From Hylemonella sp. (lineage in GTDB: Bacteria > Pseudomonadota > Gammaproteobacteria > Burkholderiales > Burkholderiaceae_C): a stretch of DNA of 64,000 nucleotides. The stretch lies in the NCBI GenBank assembly GCA_030695415.1, contig JAUYQZ010000049.1:248001-312000 (forward strand), written 5' to 3'. The position numbers and the translations under genes are program-made. The notes under the pieces were generated by a model. The model did not search any database. It was not told where the DNA came from and saw nothing but the letters and a program-made list of their open reading frames with translations. The first letter of the stretch is position 1; every line of letters starts with the position of its first letter. Positions 38,216 through 47,641 of the stretch are shown here, one piece after another.

Positions 38216-38254
38216 AGGGAGAGGGAAGCCGGAAATTATGGCACAGTGGCGGTC

Positions 38255-39157
38255 ATGAAGTACCCCACCATCGAAGACGCCATCGGCAAGACGCCGCTGG
38301 TGGCCCTGCAGCGCATCGGCGCCACGGATAACGCCGCGCGCGGCACCGTCGTCCTCGGCAAGCTCGAGGGCAACAACCCGGCCGGCTCGGTCAAGGACCG
38401 ACCGGCGCTGTCCATGATCAAACGCGCCGAGGAACGTGGCGAGATCAAGCCCGGCGATACGCTGATCGAAGCCACCTCGGGCAACACGGGCATTGCCCTG
38501 GCCATGGCCGCGGCCATCAAGGGCTACCGCATGGTGCTCATCATGCCGGAGGACCTGTCCATCGAACGCGCCCAGACCATGAAGGCTTTCGGCGCCGAAC
38601 TGATCCTCACGCCCAAATCCGGCGGCATGGAGTACGCCCGTGACCTCGCCACGCAGATGGAACAGGGCGGCAAGGGCCGGGTGCTGGACCAGTTCGCCAA
38701 TGCCGACAACCCGCGTATCCATTACGAGACCACCGGCCCCGAGCTGTGGGAGCAGACCGACGGGCGCATCACGCATTTCGTCAGCGCCATGGGCACCACA
38801 GGCACCATCACCGGCGTGTCGCGCTTCCTCAAGGAAAAGAACCCGGGGGTTCGCATCATCGGCGCGCAGCCGCAAGAGGGCTCGCGCATCCCGGGCATCC
38901 GCAAGTGGCCGCAGGAATACCTGCCCAAGATCTACGACCCGAGCACGGTGGACGAACTGGTTTACGTGAGCCAGAGCGATGCTGAAGAGATGTGCCGCCG
39001 TCTGGCGCGCGAGGAAGGCATCTTCGCTGGCGTCTCGGCCGCCGGCGCCTGCTGGGTTGCGCAGCAGATTGCCGCGCGCGAGACCAACGCGACCATTGCC
39101 TTCATCGTCTGCGACCGCGGTGACCGCTACCTGTCAACGGGCGTCTTCCCCGCCTGA
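38255..39157 (+). CDS. cysM: Cysteine synthase B
   Basis: This 300-residue protein opens MKYPTIEDAIGKTPLVALQR. Its PLP lysine is near residue 47 in NPAGSVKDRPA, and the phosphate loop is ATSGNTGIALAMAAA. It has GTTGTITGVSRFLKE and a C-terminal CDRGDRYLSTGVF. These match CysM rather than CysK (RPA after the PLP lysine instead of RIA). It makes cysteine from O-acetylserine and sulfide or thiosulfate. It is preceded by tRNA-Leu on the opposite strand. Its stop is directly abutted by a stem-loop repeat. Confidence 0.96.
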   Translation: MKYPTIEDAIGKTPLVALQRIGATDNAARGTVVLGKLEGNNPAGSVKDRPALSMIKRAEERGEIKPGDTLIEATSGNTGIALAMAAAIKGYRMVLIMPEDLSIERAQTMKAFGAELILTPKSGGMEYARDLATQMEQGGKGRVLDQFANADNPRIHYETTGPELWEQTDGRITHFVSAMGTTGTITGVSRFLKEKNPGVRIIGAQPQEGSRIPGIRKWPQEYLPKIYDPSTVDELVYVSQSDAEEMCRRLAREEGIFAGVSAAGACWVAQQIAARETNATIAFIVCDRGDRYLSTGVFPA

Positions 39158-39300
39158 GAACTTGTGAATAAATCTACTGCGCGACCCGATCGCCGCGTTG
39201 GGCGGTGCTCGCCATCCTCACGTACATCAAGTACGTTCCGGTGGCTGTGCTCCGTCCGCCTTGCGATCGGGCCGCTCGCTACGATTTCTTCACAAGCTCC
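39158..39300 (+). repeat. Stop-abutting stem-loop element, copy 1 (after cysM)
   Basis: The element begins with the base after the cysM stop. Outer arms cttgtgaataaatc and gatttcttcacaag pair 13 of 14. The next arms are gcgacccgatcgc with gcgatcgggccgc, then gccatc with ggtggc. The apex is cgtac(atcaa)gtacg. Nearly the whole 143 nt can fold into one long hairpin. It ends 12 bases before the NUDIX gene start. It shares sequence and fold with the copies at 40140 and 47445. Confidence 0.85.
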
Positions 39301-39312
39301 AAACCTCTCTTA

Positions 39313-39864
39313 ATGAGCACTGATTTCCACTACTGTCCGGCCTGCGCCACGCCGCTGGCCCTGATCAGCGTGCAGGAAGACGGTGGCCCCAAGGACCGCC
39401 TGCGCTGCCCGGCCTGCGGCTGGACCCACTGGAACAATCCCGTGCCCGTGCTGGCCGCTGTGGTCGAGGTTCAAGGCCAGATCCTGCTGGCGCGCAATGC
39501 GGCCTGGGAAGGCAAGATGTACGCGCTGATCACCGGCTTCATGGAGGCCGGCGAAACGCCGCAGGAGGGCATCGCGCGCGAGATCAAGGAAGAGACGAAC
39601 CTGCAGGCGCTGGAGTTGAACCTGATCGGGGTCTACGACTTCGAGCGCATGAACCAGCTCATCGTGGCCTACCACGCGCGCTGCGAGGGGGAGATACGAC
39701 TCTCGCCGGAGCTGGTGGATTACCGGCTGTTCGCTCCGGACAAGGTCAAATGCTGGCCCGCCGGCACCGGCTACGCCCTGGCCGACTGGTTGCGCTCACG
39801 GGGCCATGAGCCCCAGTTCATCGAGTGGTCGCGCCCGCCACAAGACCACGCACCGCCCGCCTGA
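39313..39864 (+). CDS. NUDIX hydrolase with N-terminal zinc ribbon
   Basis: This 183-residue protein has a zinc ribbon (YCPACATPL and LRCPACGWTHWNN) and the NUDIX box GFMEAGETPQEGIAREIKEE (near residues 75-95), which keeps the Glu cluster needed for metal-dependent pyrophosphate hydrolysis. This layout is found in NADH pyrophosphatase-like NUDIX proteins, but the SQPWPFP-type NudC tail is absent, so the substrate is open. The start is set by the zinc ribbon and the end of the upstream stem-loop element. Confidence 0.93.
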   Translation: MSTDFHYCPACATPLALISVQEDGGPKDRLRCPACGWTHWNNPVPVLAAVVEVQGQILLARNAAWEGKMYALITGFMEAGETPQEGIAREIKEETNLQALELNLIGVYDFERMNQLIVAYHARCEGEIRLSPELVDYRLFAPDKVKCWPAGTGYALADWLRSRGHEPQFIEWSRPPQDHAPPA

Positions 39865-39911
39865 TCCCCGGATTGCTTAAAATCGGCTCTAACCTGAAAT
39901 CTGGACTTGTG

Positions 39912-40139
39912 ATGAACGCTGACCGAGAACTCGACACCCGCGGGCTGAATTGCCCCCTGCCCATCCTCAAGACCAAGAAGGCCCTGTCGGAGATGACGAG
40001 CGGCCAGACCATCAAGGTCATCGCCACCGACGCCGGTACCGTTCGTGATTTCGTAGCCTTTGCCAAGCAGACCGGCAACGAATTGCTGGAACAGACCACT
40101 GAGGGCAAGGACTACATCCACGTCCTCAAGCGCCGCTAA
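39912..40139 (+). CDS. TusA/SirA-like sulfur-carrier protein
   Basis: This 75-residue protein has the family core ELDTRGLNCPLPILKTKKAL, where the Cys of the CPxP motif carries persulfide in TusA-type proteins. The rest (GQTIKVIATDAGTVRDFVAFAKQTGNEL, shown in part by its motif TDAGTVRDF) is typical. It probably shuttles sulfur for tRNA thiolation or other sulfur transfer, which fits the nearby cysM. Its stop is abutted by the second stem-loop element. Confidence 0.92.
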   Translation: MNADRELDTRGLNCPLPILKTKKALSEMTSGQTIKVIATDAGTVRDFVAFAKQTGNELLEQTTEGKDYIHVLKRR

Positions 40140-40281
40140 GAACCTGCGAATAAATCTACTGCGCGGCCTGATCGCCGCGTTGGGCGGTGCTCGGAATCCT
40201 CACGTACATCAAGTACGCTCCGGTTCCTGCGCTCCGTCCGCCTTGCGCTGAGGCCGCTCGCTACGATTTCTTCGCAAGTTC
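40140..40281 (+). repeat. Stop-abutting stem-loop element, copy 2 (after tusA-like gene)
   Basis: It begins with the base after the stop codon. Arms: tgcgaataaatc/gatttcttcgca, gcggcct/aggccgc, ggaatc/ggttcc, apex cgtac(atcaa)gtacg. Compared with copy 1 the stems differ on both sides in a compensating way: tgtgaa/ttcaca becomes tgcgaa/ttcgca, and gccatc/ggtggc becomes ggaatc/ggttcc. It lies between convergent genes and ends 12 bases before the galU stop. Confidence 0.85.
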
Positions 40282-40293
40282 TAAGCGCTTGGT

Positions 40294-41175
40294 TCACACC
40301 TTGAGCGATTTCAGATACGCGCGGAAATTCGCCCCTACCTCGGGGTGCGCCAGGGCCAGCTCCACCGTGGCCTCCAAAAACCCTTCCTTGCTGCCGCAGT
40401 CATAGCGCTTGCCGGCGTAGGTGTAGGCGTAGGCCGCCTCGTGCTTCAAGAGGCCGGCAATGCCGTCGGTCAGCTGGATCTCGCCACCCGCGCCCCGCGG
40501 CTGCTGGCGGATCTGCTCGAACACGGCCGGGGTGAGGATGTAACGGCCCGCCACGGCCAGGCGTGAGGGCGCGACTTCGGGTGCAGGTTTTTCGACCATG
40601 CGCTCGATCCGCATCAGACGCTCGCCCGCTGGCGTACCCGCCACGATGCCGTAGCGGCGCACCTGGTCCTGCGGCACTTCCTGCACGGCAATCACCGAGT
40701 TGTTCAAGCGATAAAACTGCTCGGCCATCTGGGCCAGCACCGGGGTGCCACCGGGCGGCCCCATCATCAGGTCGTCGGCCAGCAGCACGGCAAAGGGCGA
40801 GTTTCCAGTGAGGTGCTCGGCGCACAGCACGGCGTGTCCCAGGCCCAGGGCACGCGGCTGGCGCACATAGGAGCAAAGCATGTCGTCCGGTTGTACCGAA
40901 CGCACCAGGTCAAGCAGCGCCTGCTTGCCGCTCTGCGCCAGCTCGTTTTCCAGCTCGTACGCGGTGTCGAAATGGTCTTCGATGGCGCGCTTGTTGCGGC
41001 CCGTCACGAACACCATGTGACGGATGCCGGCCGCGTAGGCCTCTTCCACGGCGTACTGGATCAGCGGCTTGTCCACCACAGGCAGCATTTCCTTCGGCGC
41101 TGCTTTGGTGGCGGGCAGGAAACGCGTGCCGAGGCCGGCGACGGGGAAAACGGCGGTTCTGATTTTTTGCGTCAT
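40294..41175 (-). CDS. galU: UTP-glucose-1-phosphate uridylyltransferase
   Basis: This 293-residue protein starts [20 protein letters not shown], with [20 protein letters not shown] completing the nucleotide-binding signature. Further marks are [37 protein letters not shown] and [10 protein letters not shown]. It makes UDP-glucose for envelope polysaccharides. It starts 25 bases after valS on the same strand, so the two are likely co-transcribed. Confidence 0.97.
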
Positions 41176-41200
41176 GGCCCGATTCTCCCCGCGAAATAGG

Positions 41201-44104
41201 TCACTTCAAGCGGACCAACTGGTCCTGGATCTTGGCCAAGGTCGCCGTGAAATCGGCCATGCGCTTGTTCTCCTGCTCGATCACGGTGGGAGGTGCCTTG
41301 GCCACGAAGGCTTCGTTGGAGAGCTTGTTCTTGGCCTTGGCGATCTCGCCCTCCAGGCGCGCCGCCTCCTTGCCCAGGCGCAGCTTCTCCGCGACCATGT
41401 CGACTTCCATATGCAGGCACAGGCGGGCTTCGCCCACCACGGCCACCGGTGCGGCCTGGGCGGCCGCGGCCCACTCGGCCTCGGCCTGGAACACCTTGAC
41501 CTCGCTGAGCTTGGCCAGGGCCTGCAGCACCGGCGCCCACTGCTCCAGGAATGCCGTCTCGCCGGCACTGGCAGCCACCGCATACAAGGGCAGGCGCGTG
41601 GACGGCGACACATTCATCTCGCCGCGCAGGTTGCGGCAGGCGTCGACGAACTGGCGCAGGCGGGCCACCTCGGCCATGGCCGCAGCGTCAATGCGCTCCG
41701 GCTGGCTCACCGGGTAAGCGGCCACGCTCACCGATTCACCAGCCCGGCCGGCCACAGGCGCCACCTTTTGCCAGAGCTCTTCGGTGATGAAGGGGATCAG
41801 CGGGTGCGCCAGGCGCTGGATCGTTTCCAGCGTACGGATCAGGGTGCGGCGCGTGGCGCGCTGCTGCGCAGCGTCTCCGGTGTTGATCTGCACCTTGGCG
41901 ATTTCCAGGTACCAGTCGCAGAACTCGTTCCAGACGAAGTCATAGATGGTGTTGGCCACGTTGTCCAGGCGATAGTCGGCGAAGCCCTGGGCCACTTCGG
42001 CCTCGACCTGCTGCAGCAGCGAGACGATCCAGCGGTCGGCGGCGCTGAAGCTCAGGTAGCCATGGAAGGGGCCACCAGGCACACACTGCTCCTTGGTGTG
42101 CTCTTCCAGGCCGCAGTCCTGACCTTCACAGTTCATCAGCACGAAGCGTGTGGCGTTCCAGAGCTTGTTGCAGAAGTTGCGGTAACCCTCGCAGCGCTTG
42201 GAATCAAAATTGATGTTGCGCCCCAGCGAGGCCAGTGAGGCGAAAGTGAAGCGCAGAGCATCGGCACCGAAAGCCGGGATGCCTGCGGGGAATTCCTTTT
42301 CGGTGTTCTTTCGCACCTGGGGCGCGGTCTCGGGCTTGCGCAGACCGACGACGCGCTTGTCCAGCAGGGGGCCGAGGGCAATGCCGTCGATCAGGTCCAC
42401 CGGGTCCAGCACATTGCCTTCACTCTTGCTCATCTTCTGGCCCTGCGCGTCGCGCACCAGGCCGTGGATGTAGACGTGTTTGAAAGGCACCCGGCCGGTG
42501 AAGTGGGTCGTCATCATGATCATGCGGGCGACCCAGAAGAAGATGATGTCGTAGCCCGTGACCAGCACGCTGGAGGGCAGGTAGAGGTCGAAGTCTTCGG
42601 TCCCGCTACCGGAGGGGCGTTCCACAGCTTCTGGCCAGCCCATGGTGCTGAAGGGCACCAGGGCCGAGGAGTACCAGGTGTCGAGCACGTCCTCGTCACG
42701 CACGAGTTTCTGGCCTGGTGCCTTGGCCTGGGCCTCGGCTTCATTGCGCGCCACGATCACATTGCCGGCTTCGTCGTACCAGGCCGGGATCTGGTGGCCC
42801 CACCAGAGCTGGCGCGAGATGCACCAATCCTGGATGTTGTTCATCCACTGGTTGTAGGTGTTGACCCAGTTCTCGGGAACGAACTTCACCGCGCCGCTGT
42901 CGACGGCATCGATGGCCTTTTGCGCGATGCTCTTGCCTGTGGGGTCCTGCTCGCTGACCTTCGTCATCGCCACGAACCACTGGTCCGTCAGCATGGGCTC
43001 GACGATCTGGCCCGTGCGGGTGCAGATGGGCACCATGAGCTTGTGCTTCTTGGTCTCCACCAGGGCGCCGATGGCTTCCAGGTCCTTCACGATGGCCTTG
43101 CGCGCCACGAAACGGTCCAGGCCGCGGTATTTTTCGGGCGCGTTGTCGTTGACGGTGGCCTGCAGCGTCAGCACGCAGATCAGCTCCAGCTTGTGCCGCT
43201 GGCCCACCTGGTAGTCGTTGGGGTCATGGGCCGGCGTGACCTTGACCACACCCGTGCCGAATTCCTTGTCCACGTAAGCGTCGGCGATCACCGGGATCTG
43301 GCGGCCCACCAGCGGCAGCGTGACCATCTTGCCGATCAGGTGTTTATAGCGCTCGTCTTCCGGGTGCACCATCACGGCCACGTCGCCCAGCATGGTCTCG
43401 GGGCGGGTGGTGGCCACGGTCAGGCTGCCTGTTCCATCGGCCATCGGATAGGCGATGTGCCAGAGCGAACCGTCTTTCTCTTCGCTTTCCACTTCCAGGT
43501 CGGACACGGCGGACTGCAGCACCGGGTCCCAGTTCACGAGGCGCTTGCCGCGGTAGATGAGCCCTTGCTCGTACAGGCGCACGAAGGTCTCGGTGACGAC
43601 CTTGCTGAGCTTGTCGTCCATGGTGAAGTATTCGCGGCTCCAGTCCACGCTGTCGCCCATGCGGCGCATCTGGGTGGTGATGGTGTTGCCGCTCTGCTCC
43701 TTCCACTCCCACACGCGCGAAACGAAGTTCTTGCGGCCCAGGTCGTGGCGGCTGAGCTTCTGTTCCTGCAACTGGCGCTCCACCACGATCTGGGTGGCGA
43801 TGCCCGCGTGGTCGGTGCCCGGCACCCAGACCGTGTTCGCGCCCGCCATGCGGTGGTAGCGCGTGAGCGAGTCCATGATGGTCTGGTTGAAGGCATGGCC
43901 CATGTGCAGCGTGCCCGTCACATTGGGCGGCGGCAGCTGGATGGCGAAGGACGGCGCACCCGCCTTGGCCTTGCCTGTGCCGCGGAAACCCGCGTTGCCG
44001 TAGCCGCGCTTGTCCCATTCGGGGCCCCAATGCGCCTCCAGGGCGGCGGGTTCGAAGGACTTGGACAGGCTGTTGAGGCCCGGTTGCTGGACGGTGTCGG
44101 TCAT
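41201..44104 (-). CDS. valS: Valyl-tRNA synthetase
   Basis: This 967-residue class I synthetase has the HIGH-type motif [17 protein letters not shown] near residue 60 and KMSKS in [14 protein letters not shown] near residue 555. An editing domain ([19 protein letters not shown]) and a C-terminal coiled-coil arm (last 65 residues, [19 protein letters not shown]) are present, the arm being the usual ValRS tRNA-binding element. It lies downstream of an intrinsic terminator and upstream of galU. Confidence 0.98.
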
Positions 44105-44113
44105 GGTGCTGAC

Positions 44114-44148
44114 AAAAAATGAAGAACGGCACCCGAGGGTGCCGTTCC
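44114..44148 (-). terminator. Rho-independent terminator of the monooxygenase operon
   Basis: On the minus strand GAACGGCACCC and GGGTGCCGTTC form an 11-bp stem with a very short loop, followed by TTCATTTTTT. It lies about 29 bases after the DUF2783 gene and just before the valS start, so it insulates valS from the upstream operon. Confidence 0.88.
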
Positions 44149-44176
44149 ATGGGGTGTCTGGGAACTGCCCCTGATT

Positions 44177-44365
44177 TTACCGGGGCAGATCCTTGGCCGC
44201 CTGAATGCATTCGGCCAGCACATCCTTCGCTCCGATCTGGTTGGCCAGCAGCAGGATCAGCCGGGCATTGAGCAGTTCGGACTGTTCACGACTCAGACCG
44301 GTATGGGCATCGAGCAACTGCTCGTAGAAGGTGTCGGCGTCCTGGAAATGGGGGGTGGTTTTCAT
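44177..44365 (-). CDS. DUF2783 small protein
   Basis: This 62-residue protein reads DADTFYEQLLDAHTGLS, then SELLNARLILLLANQIG, and ends AAKDLPR, the pattern of DUF2783. Genes of this family are commonly found next to flavoprotein aromatic monooxygenases, as here (three-base gap). A role as a small accessory or dimerising subunit is inferred. It is all-helical by composition, with no signal peptide. Last gene of a three-gene operon ending at an intrinsic terminator. Confidence 0.85.
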   Translation of the reverse strand: MKTTPHFQDADTFYEQLLDAHTGLSREQSELLNARLILLLANQIGAKDVLAECIQAAKDLPR

Positions 44366-44368
44366 GGA

Positions 44369-46135
44369 CTACTCCTTGATGCCGATGCCGCGCTCGATGG
44401 CCTGGATCAGGCCGGCGTCCACGCTTTCTCCCGTAGCGGCGATATAGGCGTCGGGCCGCACCAGGGCCCAGGCATGGCCGAAGACATGGCAGGCTCCCTG
44501 CAGATGACCCTGCGGGTCGATCACGAACTCTCGCGCCTGGGGCCGGGTGTCCGGCCCCACGACCTGCACGCAACGCACGGGCGCAACGCTGCCCAGATGG
44601 CGCAGGCGTTGCGCCGCGGCCGCCGACATGTCGCCGAAGACCAGCACCAGCAACTGGCCGCCCGCCCACTCGATCAGGTCGTTGACGCAGCCAGCGCTTT
44701 GATCGGCCCAGCGGAAACTCACGTTCTGCACGGAGAGGCCGCCGCTGCGGTCGCAGATGCCGGACTGCGTGTAGCTGTTGGCCACGGCCATGCGGCCGGT
44801 GTTGATCAGCTGGCGGGCAAACGGGTACTGGCGCGCCAGGCTGATGGCCGCACTGCGGAAGGTGCGCTCCATGCCGTCGGCCGGGCGCAGAAAGCGCGCG
44901 GTGCGGTTGGTGACCTGCACGTTCTGCGCGGCGGCCTCGTGGCGCTCCTGGTCATAGCTGTCCAGCAGGCTCGCCGGCGCCTGGCCGCGCAGCACGGCCG
45001 CCAGTTTCCAGGCCAGGTTGTCGGCATCGGCCACGCCGGTGTTGCCACCACGCGCACCGAAGGGACTGACGATTTTGGCCGTGTCGCCCATGAAATAGAC
45101 GCTACCGATGCGCAGGGTGTCCAGGCACTGGCTGCGGTAGGCGTAGGGACCGACCCAGACGATCTCGCAGTCCACGTCGGGGCCGAACTGCTGCCTGAGT
45201 CGCTCGCGAACCACGTCCTCCCGGCTCACGAGCTCGGGGTCGGCGTTGGGCTCCATCTGGTAGTCGATACGCCAGACCTCGTCGCCCATCAGGTGCTGCC
45301 AGACCGCTCGGTTGCCATTGAAGGGCGCCTCGATCCAGGTGTGGCGCTCCTGCGGCGGACGGTGCCTGAAGCGAACATCGGCAATGCACCAGCGGTCGTC
45401 GCCGCGGCGCGAGGTCATGGTGGCGTCAGTCCAGCCGTGGAAGGGCGTGTGCGAGCCGCTGGCGTCGATCACGTGCTCGGCCTCCAGCTGGTAAGGGCCG
45501 GCCGGCGTGTCCACCGTCAGCGTGGCGTAGCCCTCCTGCTGCCTGAAGCCTGTCACGCGCGACTTCCAGCGCAGGTCCACCTGGCCCAGCCCGTAAATGC
45601 GCTCGACCAGATAGCCCTCGATATAGAACTGCTGGATGTTGATGAAAGGCGGCTGGGCCGAGAGACCAAAGCTGCTCTGCTGGCGCAAGTCGAAGGAATA
45701 GACCTCGTCCTGGCCGGCAAAGGTGCGGCCCACGCTCCACTGGATGCCCTTGGCGGCGATACGCTCGTAGATACCCAGTCGCTGGAAGATCTCCAGCGAC
45801 TTCTGCGTGTAGCAGATGCCGCGCGAGGACGCGCCCTTGACGCCCACCGTGCTGTCCTCGTCCAGCAGGACGGCCTGCACCCCCAGCTTCGCGAGGCAAC
45901 AAGCCAGGGTCAGGCCGGTGATGCCGGCGCCGACAATGACGACCTGGTGGCGTTTCGTGCCACCCTTGAGCTCCGGCGGCTCGACAAAGGGGTACTGGGG
46001 CAGTTCATAGCCCTTGCCCTGGGTGAACTCGTAGCCGTTCGTATAGGCCACGTCACGGTACGTCGTCTGCAATGGGTCGGCTCCGGCCTGCCGGATCGCG
46101 GTTCGAGCCCCTTCGGGCGACTGTGCGGGGCTCAT
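44369..46135 (-). CDS. FAD-dependent aromatic monooxygenase (MhpA/UbiH-type)
   Basis: This 588-residue group A flavoprotein hydroxylase has the FAD-binding fold VVIVGAGITGLTLACCLAKLG (near residue 65, the last Gly closing the motif). The second FAD motif is FMGDTAKIVSPFGARGGNTG (near 350) and DADNLAWKLAAVLRG follows. A thioredoxin-like C-terminal domain is likely (410-588), as in phenol and 3-(3-hydroxyphenyl)propionate hydroxylases. It would hydroxylate a phenolic ring using NAD(P)H and O2. The ATG overlaps the upstream VOC gene stop by four bases, which suggests that the VOC protein acts on the same pathway. Confidence 0.92.
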   Translation of the reverse strand: MSPAQSPEGARTAIRQAGADPLQTTYRDVAYTNGYEFTQGKGYELPQYPFVEPPELKGGTKRHQVVIVGAGITGLTLACCLAKLGVQAVLLDEDSTVGVKGASSRGICYTQKSLEIFQRLGIYERIAAKGIQWSVGRTFAGQDEVYSFDLRQQSSFGLSAQPPFINIQQFYIEGYLVERIYGLGQVDLRWKSRVTGFRQQEGYATLTVDTPAGPYQLEAEHVIDASGSHTPFHGWTDATMTSRRGDDRWCIADVRFRHRPPQERHTWIEAPFNGNRAVWQHLMGDEVWRIDYQMEPNADPELVSREDVVRERLRQQFGPDVDCEIVWVGPYAYRSQCLDTLRIGSVYFMGDTAKIVSPFGARGGNTGVADADNLAWKLAAVLRGQAPASLLDSYDQERHEAAAQNVQVTNRTARFLRPADGMERTFRSAAISLARQYPFARQLINTGRMAVANSYTQSGICDRSGGLSVQNVSFRWADQSAGCVNDLIEWAGGQLLVLVFGDMSAAAAQRLRHLGSVAPVRCVQVVGPDTRPQAREFVIDPQGHLQGACHVFGHAWALVRPDAYIAATGESVDAGLIQAIERGIGIKE

Positions 46136-46767
46136 GCCTTGCCCTTCTGCGCGGCGCGCGCAGCCACTTCGGGCCGGTCATTCTGTTGCGGCTTCAGCGG
46201 TGCGGCCACCTTGCCGGCGGCGCGCTCCTGGCGCCAGACCGCCTTGCGCGCGCTCCATTCGTTGAGGCGCGCGTGAGCGGTGGTGCTTTCCTGGAGCATC
46301 TGGAACTCGTCAGCGACCTGAGCCGAAAGCTCGAGCCGGATGCCGTTGGGGTCAAAAAAGTAAATGCTCTTGAAGATGTGATGGTCGGTCACACCGATCA
46401 CCTCGATGCCGTGGGCCTGCAGCCTCGCCTTCATGTCTTCGAGCTGCGCAACGGAATCGAGCCTGAAGGCGACGTGGTTCACCCAGCGCGGCGTGTTGGC
46501 GCTGGGCTCGGCGGCCACATCGTCGCCCAGGTCGAAGAAGGCGATGAAGGAGCCGTCCTGCAGGCGAAAGAAGAAGTGCGTGTAGGGACAGTATTCCCCC
46601 GTGCTGGGCACGTGGTCGCTCTGGATGATGTGGTACAGCGGCAGGCCCAGGATGTCTTCATAGAAGTGTCGCGTCTCCTCGGCGTCGCGCGCCCGGTAGG
46701 CGTAATGGTGCAACTGCTGGATCGGCGGCGGCGGCGGCAAGGCGGCCGCGCGGGGACTGTTGCTCAT
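46132..46767 (-). CDS. VOC-fold protein, possible ring-cleavage dioxygenase
   Basis: This 211-residue protein has a VOC/glyoxalase-dioxygenase domain (residues 18-150). Likely metal ligands are His in QLHHYAYRARDAEE, His in WVNHVAFRLD and Glu in GIRLELSAQ, a 2-His-1-carboxylate set. It has DILGLPLYHIIQSDHVPSTG as a cap segment. A basic Ala/Lys-rich tail (155-211) is unusual for the family. It heads an operon with the flavoprotein hydroxylase and DUF2783, so a hydroxylation-then-cleavage pathway is inferred; the substrate is unknown. Confidence 0.85.
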   Translation of the reverse strand: MSNSPRAAALPPPPPIQQLHHYAYRARDAEETRHFYEDILGLPLYHIIQSDHVPSTGEYCPYTHFFFRLQDGSFIAFFDLGDDVAAEPSANTPRWVNHVAFRLDSVAQLEDMKARLQAHGIEVIGVTDHHIFKSIYFFDPNGIRLELSAQVADEFQMLQESTTAHARLNEWSARKAVWRQERAAGKVAAPLKPQQNDRPEVAARAAQKGKA

Positions 46768-47021
46768 GGGTACTCCTCGGCAGTCAATTCACTGATCCGT
46801 AATTCATTCACTTTACCGTAACTCCCCAGGGCGCCGAGCTGGCCCGCCAGCCTGAACCAGGGCAGTTATTGCGAATCAATATCGATTCTTAATAGCGAGC
46901 AGCAATTTGTCATATTGAAAGTGCCAATTAGACGCCCCAAGAACTCCAGGAATACCCTCTCGTCAGTCTTTGACCTGTTCAAAGCATTCCCGTGTTTTCT
47001 CAACGCATCAAGGAGATAGCC
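46768..47021. promoter_or_regulatory. Divergent promoter region between VOC operon and rubrerythrin
   Basis: This 254-bp gap is notably AT-richer than its surroundings in the middle (46865-46935) and must drive both divergent operons. Seen directly: an imperfect palindrome gaatcaatatcgattc at 46873-46888 (one mismatch), and near the VOC gene ttacgg repeated about 17 bases apart on the minus strand. Either could be an operator. I cannot name the regulator; the palindrome is only loosely Fur-like. Confidence 0.45.
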
Positions 47022-47444
47022 ATGCCCGCACTGAAAGGTTCCAAAACGGAACAGTGCCTGAAGGACGCCTTCGCCGGCGAATCACAGGCCAACCGCCGCT
47101 ACCTGTATTTCGCAAACAAGGCCGACGTGGAAGGCCAGAACGACGTGGCGGCGCTGTTCCGCTCCACCGCTGAAGGCGAGACCGGCCACGCCCACGGCCA
47201 CCTGGAATTCCTGGAGCAGTCCGGCGACCCCGCCACCGGCATGCCCATCGGCTCCACCCGCGACAACCTGAAGTCAGCTGTCGCCGGCGAAACCCATGAG
47301 TACACCGACATGTACCCCGGCATGGCCAAGACCGCCCGTGCTGAAGGCTTCGACGAAGTCGCCGACTGGTTCGAGACGCTGGCCAAGGCCGAGCGCTCGC
47401 ACGCGAATCGCTACCAGAAGGCCCTGAACGAACTCGTGGATTAA
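47022..47444 (+). CDS. Rubrerythrin family protein without rubredoxin domain
   Basis: This 140-residue protein has the ferritin-like diiron motifs: [19 protein letters not shown] (first Glu), [14 protein letters not shown] (ExxH), [16 protein letters not shown] and [15 protein letters not shown] (ExxH-like). The C-terminal CX2C rubredoxin domain of classical rubrerythrin is missing, so electrons must come from a separate carrier. It probably reduces peroxide. A strong RBS (AAGGAG) lies nine bases upstream. It is followed, across a stem-loop element, by a GlpC-like Fe-S protein and a DUF3501 protein that may be its partners. Confidence 0.93.
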
Positions 47445-47562
47445 GGGCTACTGCGCGAGCCGATAGCGGCGTTGCGGGCCCCGTTCAGGCCATCCTCATG
47501 CACCCCAAGTGCATTCCGGTGGCCCGACACCCGCGCCTTGCTCTCGGCCGGCTCGCTACGCC
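47445..47562 (+). repeat. Stop-abutting stem-loop element, copy 3 (after rubrerythrin)
   Basis: It begins with the base after the rubrerythrin stop. The tactgcgcgag opening matches the other copies' tactgcgcg. Stems: gcgagcc/ggctcgc, ggccatcc/ggtggcc, apex atgcac(cccaa)gtgcat. The apex stem differs in sequence from copies 1 and 2 on both sides, yet still pairs. The outer cttgtgaa arm is missing. A further small hairpin, ctacgcc/ggcgtag, follows. The Fe-S protein gene starts about 80 bases later. Confidence 0.75.
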
Positions 47563-47641
47563 GTGAGGCGTAGTGGGTTTGCGAAAGACTTCTGGGAGCA
47601 CAGAGGTCTTCTTCAAACCACCACAACAAAGAGGACACACC

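Follow-up and report, generated by a model that had tools for sequence, protein, structure and literature searches.

We analysed a 64,000-nucleotide stretch of contig JAUYQZ010000049.1 of Hylemonella sp. (positions 248,001 to 312,000; this whole stretch is called the window below), in which three copies of a hairpin-forming element stand directly behind the stop codons of three plus-strand genes (element starts at 39158, 40140 and 47445). The copies belong to a repeat family with a bias in position and orientation relative to stop codons and with covarying stems; the stop codon is native at the empty sites compared, and target duplications occur in some other lineages. We favour, with reservations that are set out below, the explanation that the element is a mobile palindrome resembling a miniature inverted-repeat transposable element (MITE), that its C-TNA-G-like target includes stop codons, and that it is kept in sense orientation as a hairpin of the 3' untranslated region (3'-UTR).

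The family was delimited with a covariance model (R1) built from 11 copies of the own genome. A search of this 3.70-Mb genome with R1 returned 27 rows at 16 places (11 rows are opposite-strand readings of the same places), and the Rfam model sX9 added one further place (C8:66273). The own assembly is listed as 7.81% contaminated, so single contigs assigned to this genome could be foreign. Among the 41 genomes searched from the own genus and its relatives in the order, the own genome included, 26 have a match at E<=0.001, and four genomes of the genus have no match at this threshold. From the strong matches listed we tabulated at least 158 copies, nearly all from the own genus, with five from other families of the order; opposite-strand readings, duplicate loci, a 29-bit hit (L089:2714-2835), G005:C138 and G020:C239 were left out. 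The 149 upstream genes identified fall into 75 families.

For 149 of the 158 copies, the end of a coding open reading frame (ORF), called by codon-usage score, falls between -17 and +17 nt from the element start; the nine copies without a clear coding ORF are counted as misses. The stop lies at offset 0 in 87 copies and at +1 in 25 (112 together), and 14 of the 16 own-genome copies fall at one of these two offsets. Larger offsets are found mostly in a second class of copies (class B, described below), whose core is close behind the stop though the model match runs into the gene. Two controls were used: at the other end of the element, stops of convergent genes are found at 0/1 nt in 2 of 156 copies, and of 29841 positions drawn at random, 17 have a coding stop at offset 0/1. 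An earlier note on this DNA, made from the three copies in the window, had staked its reading on a bias in orientation and in distance to the upstream stop, and this bias is upheld across the family. It is weaker beyond the genus: among 87 copies from 28 other genomes of the order (L366 is interrupted by a contig end, as is L368 on its 3' side), a coding stop lies at -3 to +17 in 45 copies on the sense and 11 on the antisense side, and at offset 0/1 in 22 and 7, respectively.

In the window, each of the three copies begins, as the earlier note stated, at the base after the stop of a plus-strand gene and in equal orientation. Copy 1 (39158..39299, plus strand; R1 E=2.6e-35) is a full hairpin of 142 nt with the arms GAACTTGTGAA/TTCACAAGCTC and adjoins the TGA stop (39155..39157, plus strand) of a cysM-like gene (ORF 38246-39157, Pfam PALP enzyme). 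Copy 2 (40140..40281, plus strand; R1 E=1.7e-33), also a full hairpin of 142 nt, adjoins the TAA stop (40137..40139, plus strand) of a tusA gene (Pfam TusA), and a second TAA (40282-40284) stands directly behind its 3' arm. Both belong to class A, the dispersed copies with the outer arm GAACTTGTGAATAAAT. Copy 3 (47445..47578, plus strand; R1 E=2.7e-14) belongs to class B; its core (CTACTGCGCG..CGCTACG) adjoins the TAA stop (47442..47444, plus strand) of a rubrerythrin gene (Pfam), the class A outer arm is missing, and the model match spans 47432-47578. The R1 training set included copies 1 and 2 and not copy 3, which bears on the E-values in the own genome. The computed folds of copy 1 (39158-39300, -71.6 kcal/mol) and copy 2 (40140-40283, -66.7 kcal/mol) are single long hairpins whose apex loop has five bases. 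Copy 3, in its fold of minimum energy (47445-47600), retains the apical hairpin with its five-base loop and pairs the base otherwise, so that the long hairpin described earlier for all three copies applies in full to the first two and to the apical part of the third. The three compensatory stem changes named in the earlier note are present in the copy sequences.

Presence and absence of the element vary between congeners at the same site. We removed the element from 12 filled loci and searched the joined flanks in 12 genomes; the queries match congener sites without the element, and 26 junction-crossing matches were taken. By protein comparison, which also settled the empty site of L185, the empty-site orthologue and the filled gene terminate at the same codon in 24 of the 26 pairs, and in the remaining two (L191 and L192) the gene is two residues shorter. 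The stops at the empty sites are TGA in 21 cases, TAA in three and TAG in two, and several differ from the stop triplet of the filled gene; orthologous tusA copies likewise follow different stops (TAA, TGA and TAA). Because of the shared end codon and these differing triplets, supply of the stop by the element was ruled out, and in the comparisons made the stop is native. Presence/absence at orthologous sites, together with the target duplications in some other lineages, bears out the mobile origin that the earlier note had listed as one possibility.

Base pairing is conserved well beyond the copies in the window. Covariation was assessed in an alignment of 98 distinct sequences, comprising roughly one for each gene family together with distant taxa; as this alignment had been fitted to the model, it is biased in the model's favour. 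Of its cells, 94.4% pair and double changes occur in 40 of the 49 pairs. Double-change cells number 662 vs 147.7 in shuffles (reached in 0 of 500), and structures slid along the alignment pair in only 30-41%. The outer arms (helix 1) pair in 94.3% of cells and covary, and constitute terminal inverted repeats. Covariation in a larger alignment, on which the earlier note had also staked its reading, is thus strong, and it supports the earlier proposal that the pairing itself is selected or homogenised.

The flanks give an indication of the target. Of the own-genus copies, the 23 closest to the consensus have C at position -4 in 21 cases and G at position +4 in 21; in the other 24 copies, C precedes the stop in 21 and G stands fourth behind the 3' arm in 15, and ordinary stops at these loci have C directly before them in 41 of 77. 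This C/G spacing is what a 3-bp duplication inside C-TNA-G would give. Identical flanking words were detected in other lineages: YTAR four-mers in 8 of 12 copies (re-paired mean 2.4; reached in 0 of 500 re-pairings), TNA three-mers in 6 of 10 (mean 3.0; 14 of 500) and three-mers in 4 of 21 copies from a mixed set (mean 0.9; 0 of 500), duplication counts having skipped 3 of 15 and 5 of 15 copies whose arm was not recognised. In Chlorobi the four-mers are identical in 4 of 9 copies (reached in 0 of 300 re-pairings), at an offset that, here and in the best-offset counts given below, was chosen as the most favourable among 48 for each group. The target seems to be C-TNA-G/YTAR-like and to contain the stop trinucleotides; the earlier note's suggestion of a mobile element that targets stop codons is supported only in part.

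Class A comprises 94 dispersed, near-identical copies behind 54 gene families. Their stops (83 TGA, nine TAA and two TAG) are close in composition to those of ordinary genes at the same loci (62, 9 and 6; n=77). A subclass of about 205 bp carries an insert of about 62 nt (L022, L063, L083 and others), orthologous sites may carry either the 142-nt or the 205-nt form, and 56-bp derivatives with an internal deletion retain both ends (L025, L026; G015:C1:2813337-2813392). In class B the core lies near the stop and the arms are gene-specific, with the stop at times inside the stem (L041, L062 and L081). The hosts of class B, identified mainly by Pfam, are GroES (L167, and L289 by eye from the C-terminus), GroEL (L245 in Rhodoferax and L274 in Sideroxydans), COX3, FliE, AhcY, thiolase, Fe-S assembly, enoyl-CoA hydratase and periplasmic binding protein. 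Since class B recurs at the same genes in different genera, retention is suggested, although repeated insertion is also possible, and the set, for example at groES, groEL, cox3, fliE and ahcY, looks domesticated. Two copies of about 600 and 530 bp in G529 (L474 and L475) carry additional palindromes that are nested at the apex and have AGAACCTATCTCAT-like ends. Another in G531 (L473, 361-1810) is split near the apex by a stretch with an IS110-type transposase gene (PF01548, PF02371), and the hairpin may be a target of IS110-type elements. As it holds the IS110-type gene, this 1450-bp copy was ruled out as an autonomous partner of the family.

The family extends far beyond the genus: of the 250 genomes and 121 genera covered in the order, 64 and 41, respectively, have matches at E<=1e-8. 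Among the matches listed, the core pattern is present in Acidovorax, Curvibacter, Rhodoferax, Polaromonas, Herbaspirillum, Gallionella, Xanthomonas, Pseudomonas, Regiella, Fukatsuia and Chlorobium, and these named relatives span Proteobacteria and Chlorobiota. The core is conserved across lineages and the arms are lineage-specific. Related hairpins were also seen in records of Fukatsuia, Regiella and Chlorobiaceae (L230, L267, L288, L226 and L290), which suggests horizontal transfer.

In the mechanism that we consider most probable, the conserved core (CTACTGCGCG...CGCTCGCTACG), which is about 110 nt long and most of all conserved strongly in its apical part, would fold as a single long imperfect hairpin, and the lineage-specific outer stem around it would act as terminal inverted repeats. 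A putative transposase would mobilise the element, which in the own genus would enter a target with the presumed consensus C-TNA-G. Where this target lies at a gene end (C-TGA-G or C-TAA-G), the stop codon would stay intact and the element would begin exactly behind it. Insertions inside genes would be purged and sense insertions behind stops kept, purging being the presumed cause of the bias. Transcripts would then carry the element at the beginning of the 3'-UTR, and there it would most likely serve as a 3'-end structure (a barrier to 3' exonucleases, or a site of RNase III-type processing) rather than as a terminator. Our best guess for its role is that it may protect the end of the upstream mRNA or allow that end to be processed.

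Several results weigh against such a MITE-like history. An intact duplication was sought in the own genus and not found: no more than 8 of 47 copies have a 3' trinucleotide identical to the stop, and the near-consensus copies do no better (4 of 23). Duplications are also weak in G452 (1 of 7; reached in 132 of 500 re-pairings), in another group (2 of 7; 29 of 500), in Herbaspirillum/Formivibrio (1 of 6, best offset) and in further groups (3 of 5, reached in 25 of 300 re-pairings, 2 of 9 and 5 of 12; best offsets). Uniform choice among the available targets gives a log10 P of -3.3 for YTRA, -2.1 for CTGA and -8.8 for any TRA. In the own genus, 15 competing YTRA sites in all are present in the intergenic remainders of 46 loci (mean length 32 nt); given so few competing sites and a P of about 10^-3, target preference and purging explain much of the stop position, but not all of it. 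These two factors do not account for the fixed orientation; the element is nearly always in sense, whereas a classical MITE would insert both ways. In the eight genomes scanned with exact or one-mismatch end patterns (G012, G015, G018, G435, G529, G461, G531 and G412), we detected no autonomous element that shares these ends. Finally, four U-G pairs are nearly fixed, and outside these A-C exceeds G-U, with 63 vs 28 within the genus (p 0.06 in a sign test across columns) and 59 vs 11 elsewhere (p 0.0001). The sense strand is the more stable strand in only 31 of 99. The A-C excess and this low proportion point to a constraint on the antisense strand, which is not what a purely sense-RNA role predicts.

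The strand bias also counts against the next explanation, which we hold to be considerably less probable: a functional RNA element of the 3'-UTR (a stabiliser or processing site) that is inherited and spread by recombination, with selection setting position and orientation and with mobility incidental. The fixed orientation fits such a function, as do covariation that includes gene-specific outer arms, the recurrence of class B at the same genes across genera and a copy between groES and groEL. It does not readily account for class A copies whose presence varies between congeners, for the target duplications and weaker stop bias in some other lineages, or for the four genomes of the genus without a match.

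Transcription termination, whether Rho-independent or Rho-dependent and aided by the hairpin, and possibly bidirectional between convergent genes, is improbable as an explanation of the family. A convergent neighbour is present at 59 of the 82 class A copies with a neighbour found, at 20 of 53 other copies and at 6 of 71 ordinary genes, a small baseline taken from the same loci; this excess is what a terminator would lead one to expect. T-rich 8-mers just behind the element are enriched yet rare (13 of 157 copies, or 8%, vs a background of 74 of 3160, or 2%), and a codirectional gene follows 23 class A copies and 33 others, in some cases at a distance of 3-15 nt. In G007 a copy stands between groES and groEL. 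The rare U-tracts and the groES-groEL copy ruled out an intrinsic terminator as the general role; together with the codirectional genes that stand downstream of copies 1 and 3 in the window, they make a strict terminator unlikely in that capacity, and the earlier suggestion of termination does not hold as a general role.

It is about as improbable that the element is akin to repetitive extragenic palindromic (REP) sequences and is moved on the antisense strand by the Y1 transposase of these genomes, of the REP-associated tyrosine transposase (RAYT) type. The Y1 gene (PF01797) is present in 17 of 18 genomes of the genus, in single copy in 16 of them, and the antisense wobble bias and the fixed orientation would both fit strand-specific transposition. 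GTAG is found at both core ends on the antisense strand, and REPs bear GTAG tags (excerpts of PMC2817692 and PMC3733652). Set against this, no element copy was found in the 1.5-kb flanks of the four Y1 genes examined (L199-L202), and for want of linkage at these loci RAYT was rejected as the mover. The gene is present whether element copies are many or none (G001 has one Y1 gene), REPs of 20-40 bp are shorter than the element by a factor of about 3.5 to 7, and the target duplications in other lineages misfit Y1 transposition as generally understood.

A trans-acting small RNA, as which sX9 is filed in Rfam (RF02228), is very unlikely: the model is above threshold for copy 2 (3' half at 40202..40276, plus strand, 49.8 bits against a gathering score of 44) and in 8 of the 20 loci scanned (one being a Xanthomonas phaseoli locus), but this 76-nt model spans the 3' half of the hairpin only and pairs it differently, with helices that compete with the long stem, and the copies are many per genome and stop-bound here. 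The 3' half of copy 1 (39220..39294, plus strand) scores 29.5 bits and copy 3 scores 25.8 bits (47498-47569), both below the threshold of 44, and the sX9 model reaches E<=1e-5 in 8 of 370 genomes of the class, the own genome included.

A bolder reading, which we consider rather unlikely, can also be put forward. One hairpin core, shared by Proteobacteria and Chlorobiota, may act as a portable 3'-UTR module that acquires new transposon ends in each lineage; at some genes the stop would lie within the basal stem, and the terminating ribosome would open and close the base of the hairpin. If so, translation termination would be coupled to the fate of the mRNA 3' end, and selection for this coupling would explain the fixed sense orientation. 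On the MITE-like reading, the multi-copy 'small RNA' entry sX9 would become one half of a widespread mobile palindrome, and the family would offer a testable case of a transposon-like element that colonises stop codons without harm. Its dozens of copies, at filled sites that have matching empty counterparts in congeners, would allow a direct measurement of how a hairpin next to the stop acts on mRNA ends.

Among known systems, MITEs with TNA or YTAR duplications, which we take to be IS5-family-like, share with the element the inverted terminal arms and, in several lineages, the 3-4 bp duplications; they differ in that no autonomous partner was found here in the genomes scanned and that orientation and stop placement are fixed in the genus. 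The Yersinia palindromic sequences (YPAL/RU-2) insert directly downstream of stop codons, and, compared by description, the position of our element differs in being exact to the base. YPAL/RU-2 has target duplications of 3 to 26 bp and internal inverted repeats (excerpt of PMC2229807). The REP/RAYT systems are likewise palindromes near gene ends with a Y1 transposase gene present. REPs are described, in partial accounts, as 20-40 bp long and usually present in more than 100 copies per genome, and their termini often provide a TAG stop (excerpt of PMC3733652); the element, at 142 nt, is not a single GTAG palindrome of 20-40 nt, and its stop is native and not supplied by the element. BRE repeats of Bordetella (excerpt of PMC3110155) were weighed as a candidate by description, not by sequence. 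The closest match in sequence is sX9, which belongs to the same family, its model being the 3' half of the element. According to excerpts, sX9 ranks among the most prevalent bacterial small RNAs (PMC9029176) and was predicted in Herbaspirillum (PMC6337395). In Rfam it is a small RNA with few small helices, whereas the element is a dispersed palindrome of about 142 nt with lineage-specific arms, stop-bound in the genus. The titles and abstract openings searched, a scope outside of which most subscription papers lie, gave no account of the full hairpin, the lineage-specific ends or the stop placement. Short mobile palindromes near gene ends are a known kind, with enterobacterial repetitive intergenic consensus (ERIC) sequences, YPAL, REP and MITEs as examples (excerpts of PMC2229807, PMC3733652, PMC2817692 and PMC10969869); what appears to be new, within the literature searched, is the full hairpin, its lineage-specific ends and its placement at the stop codon.

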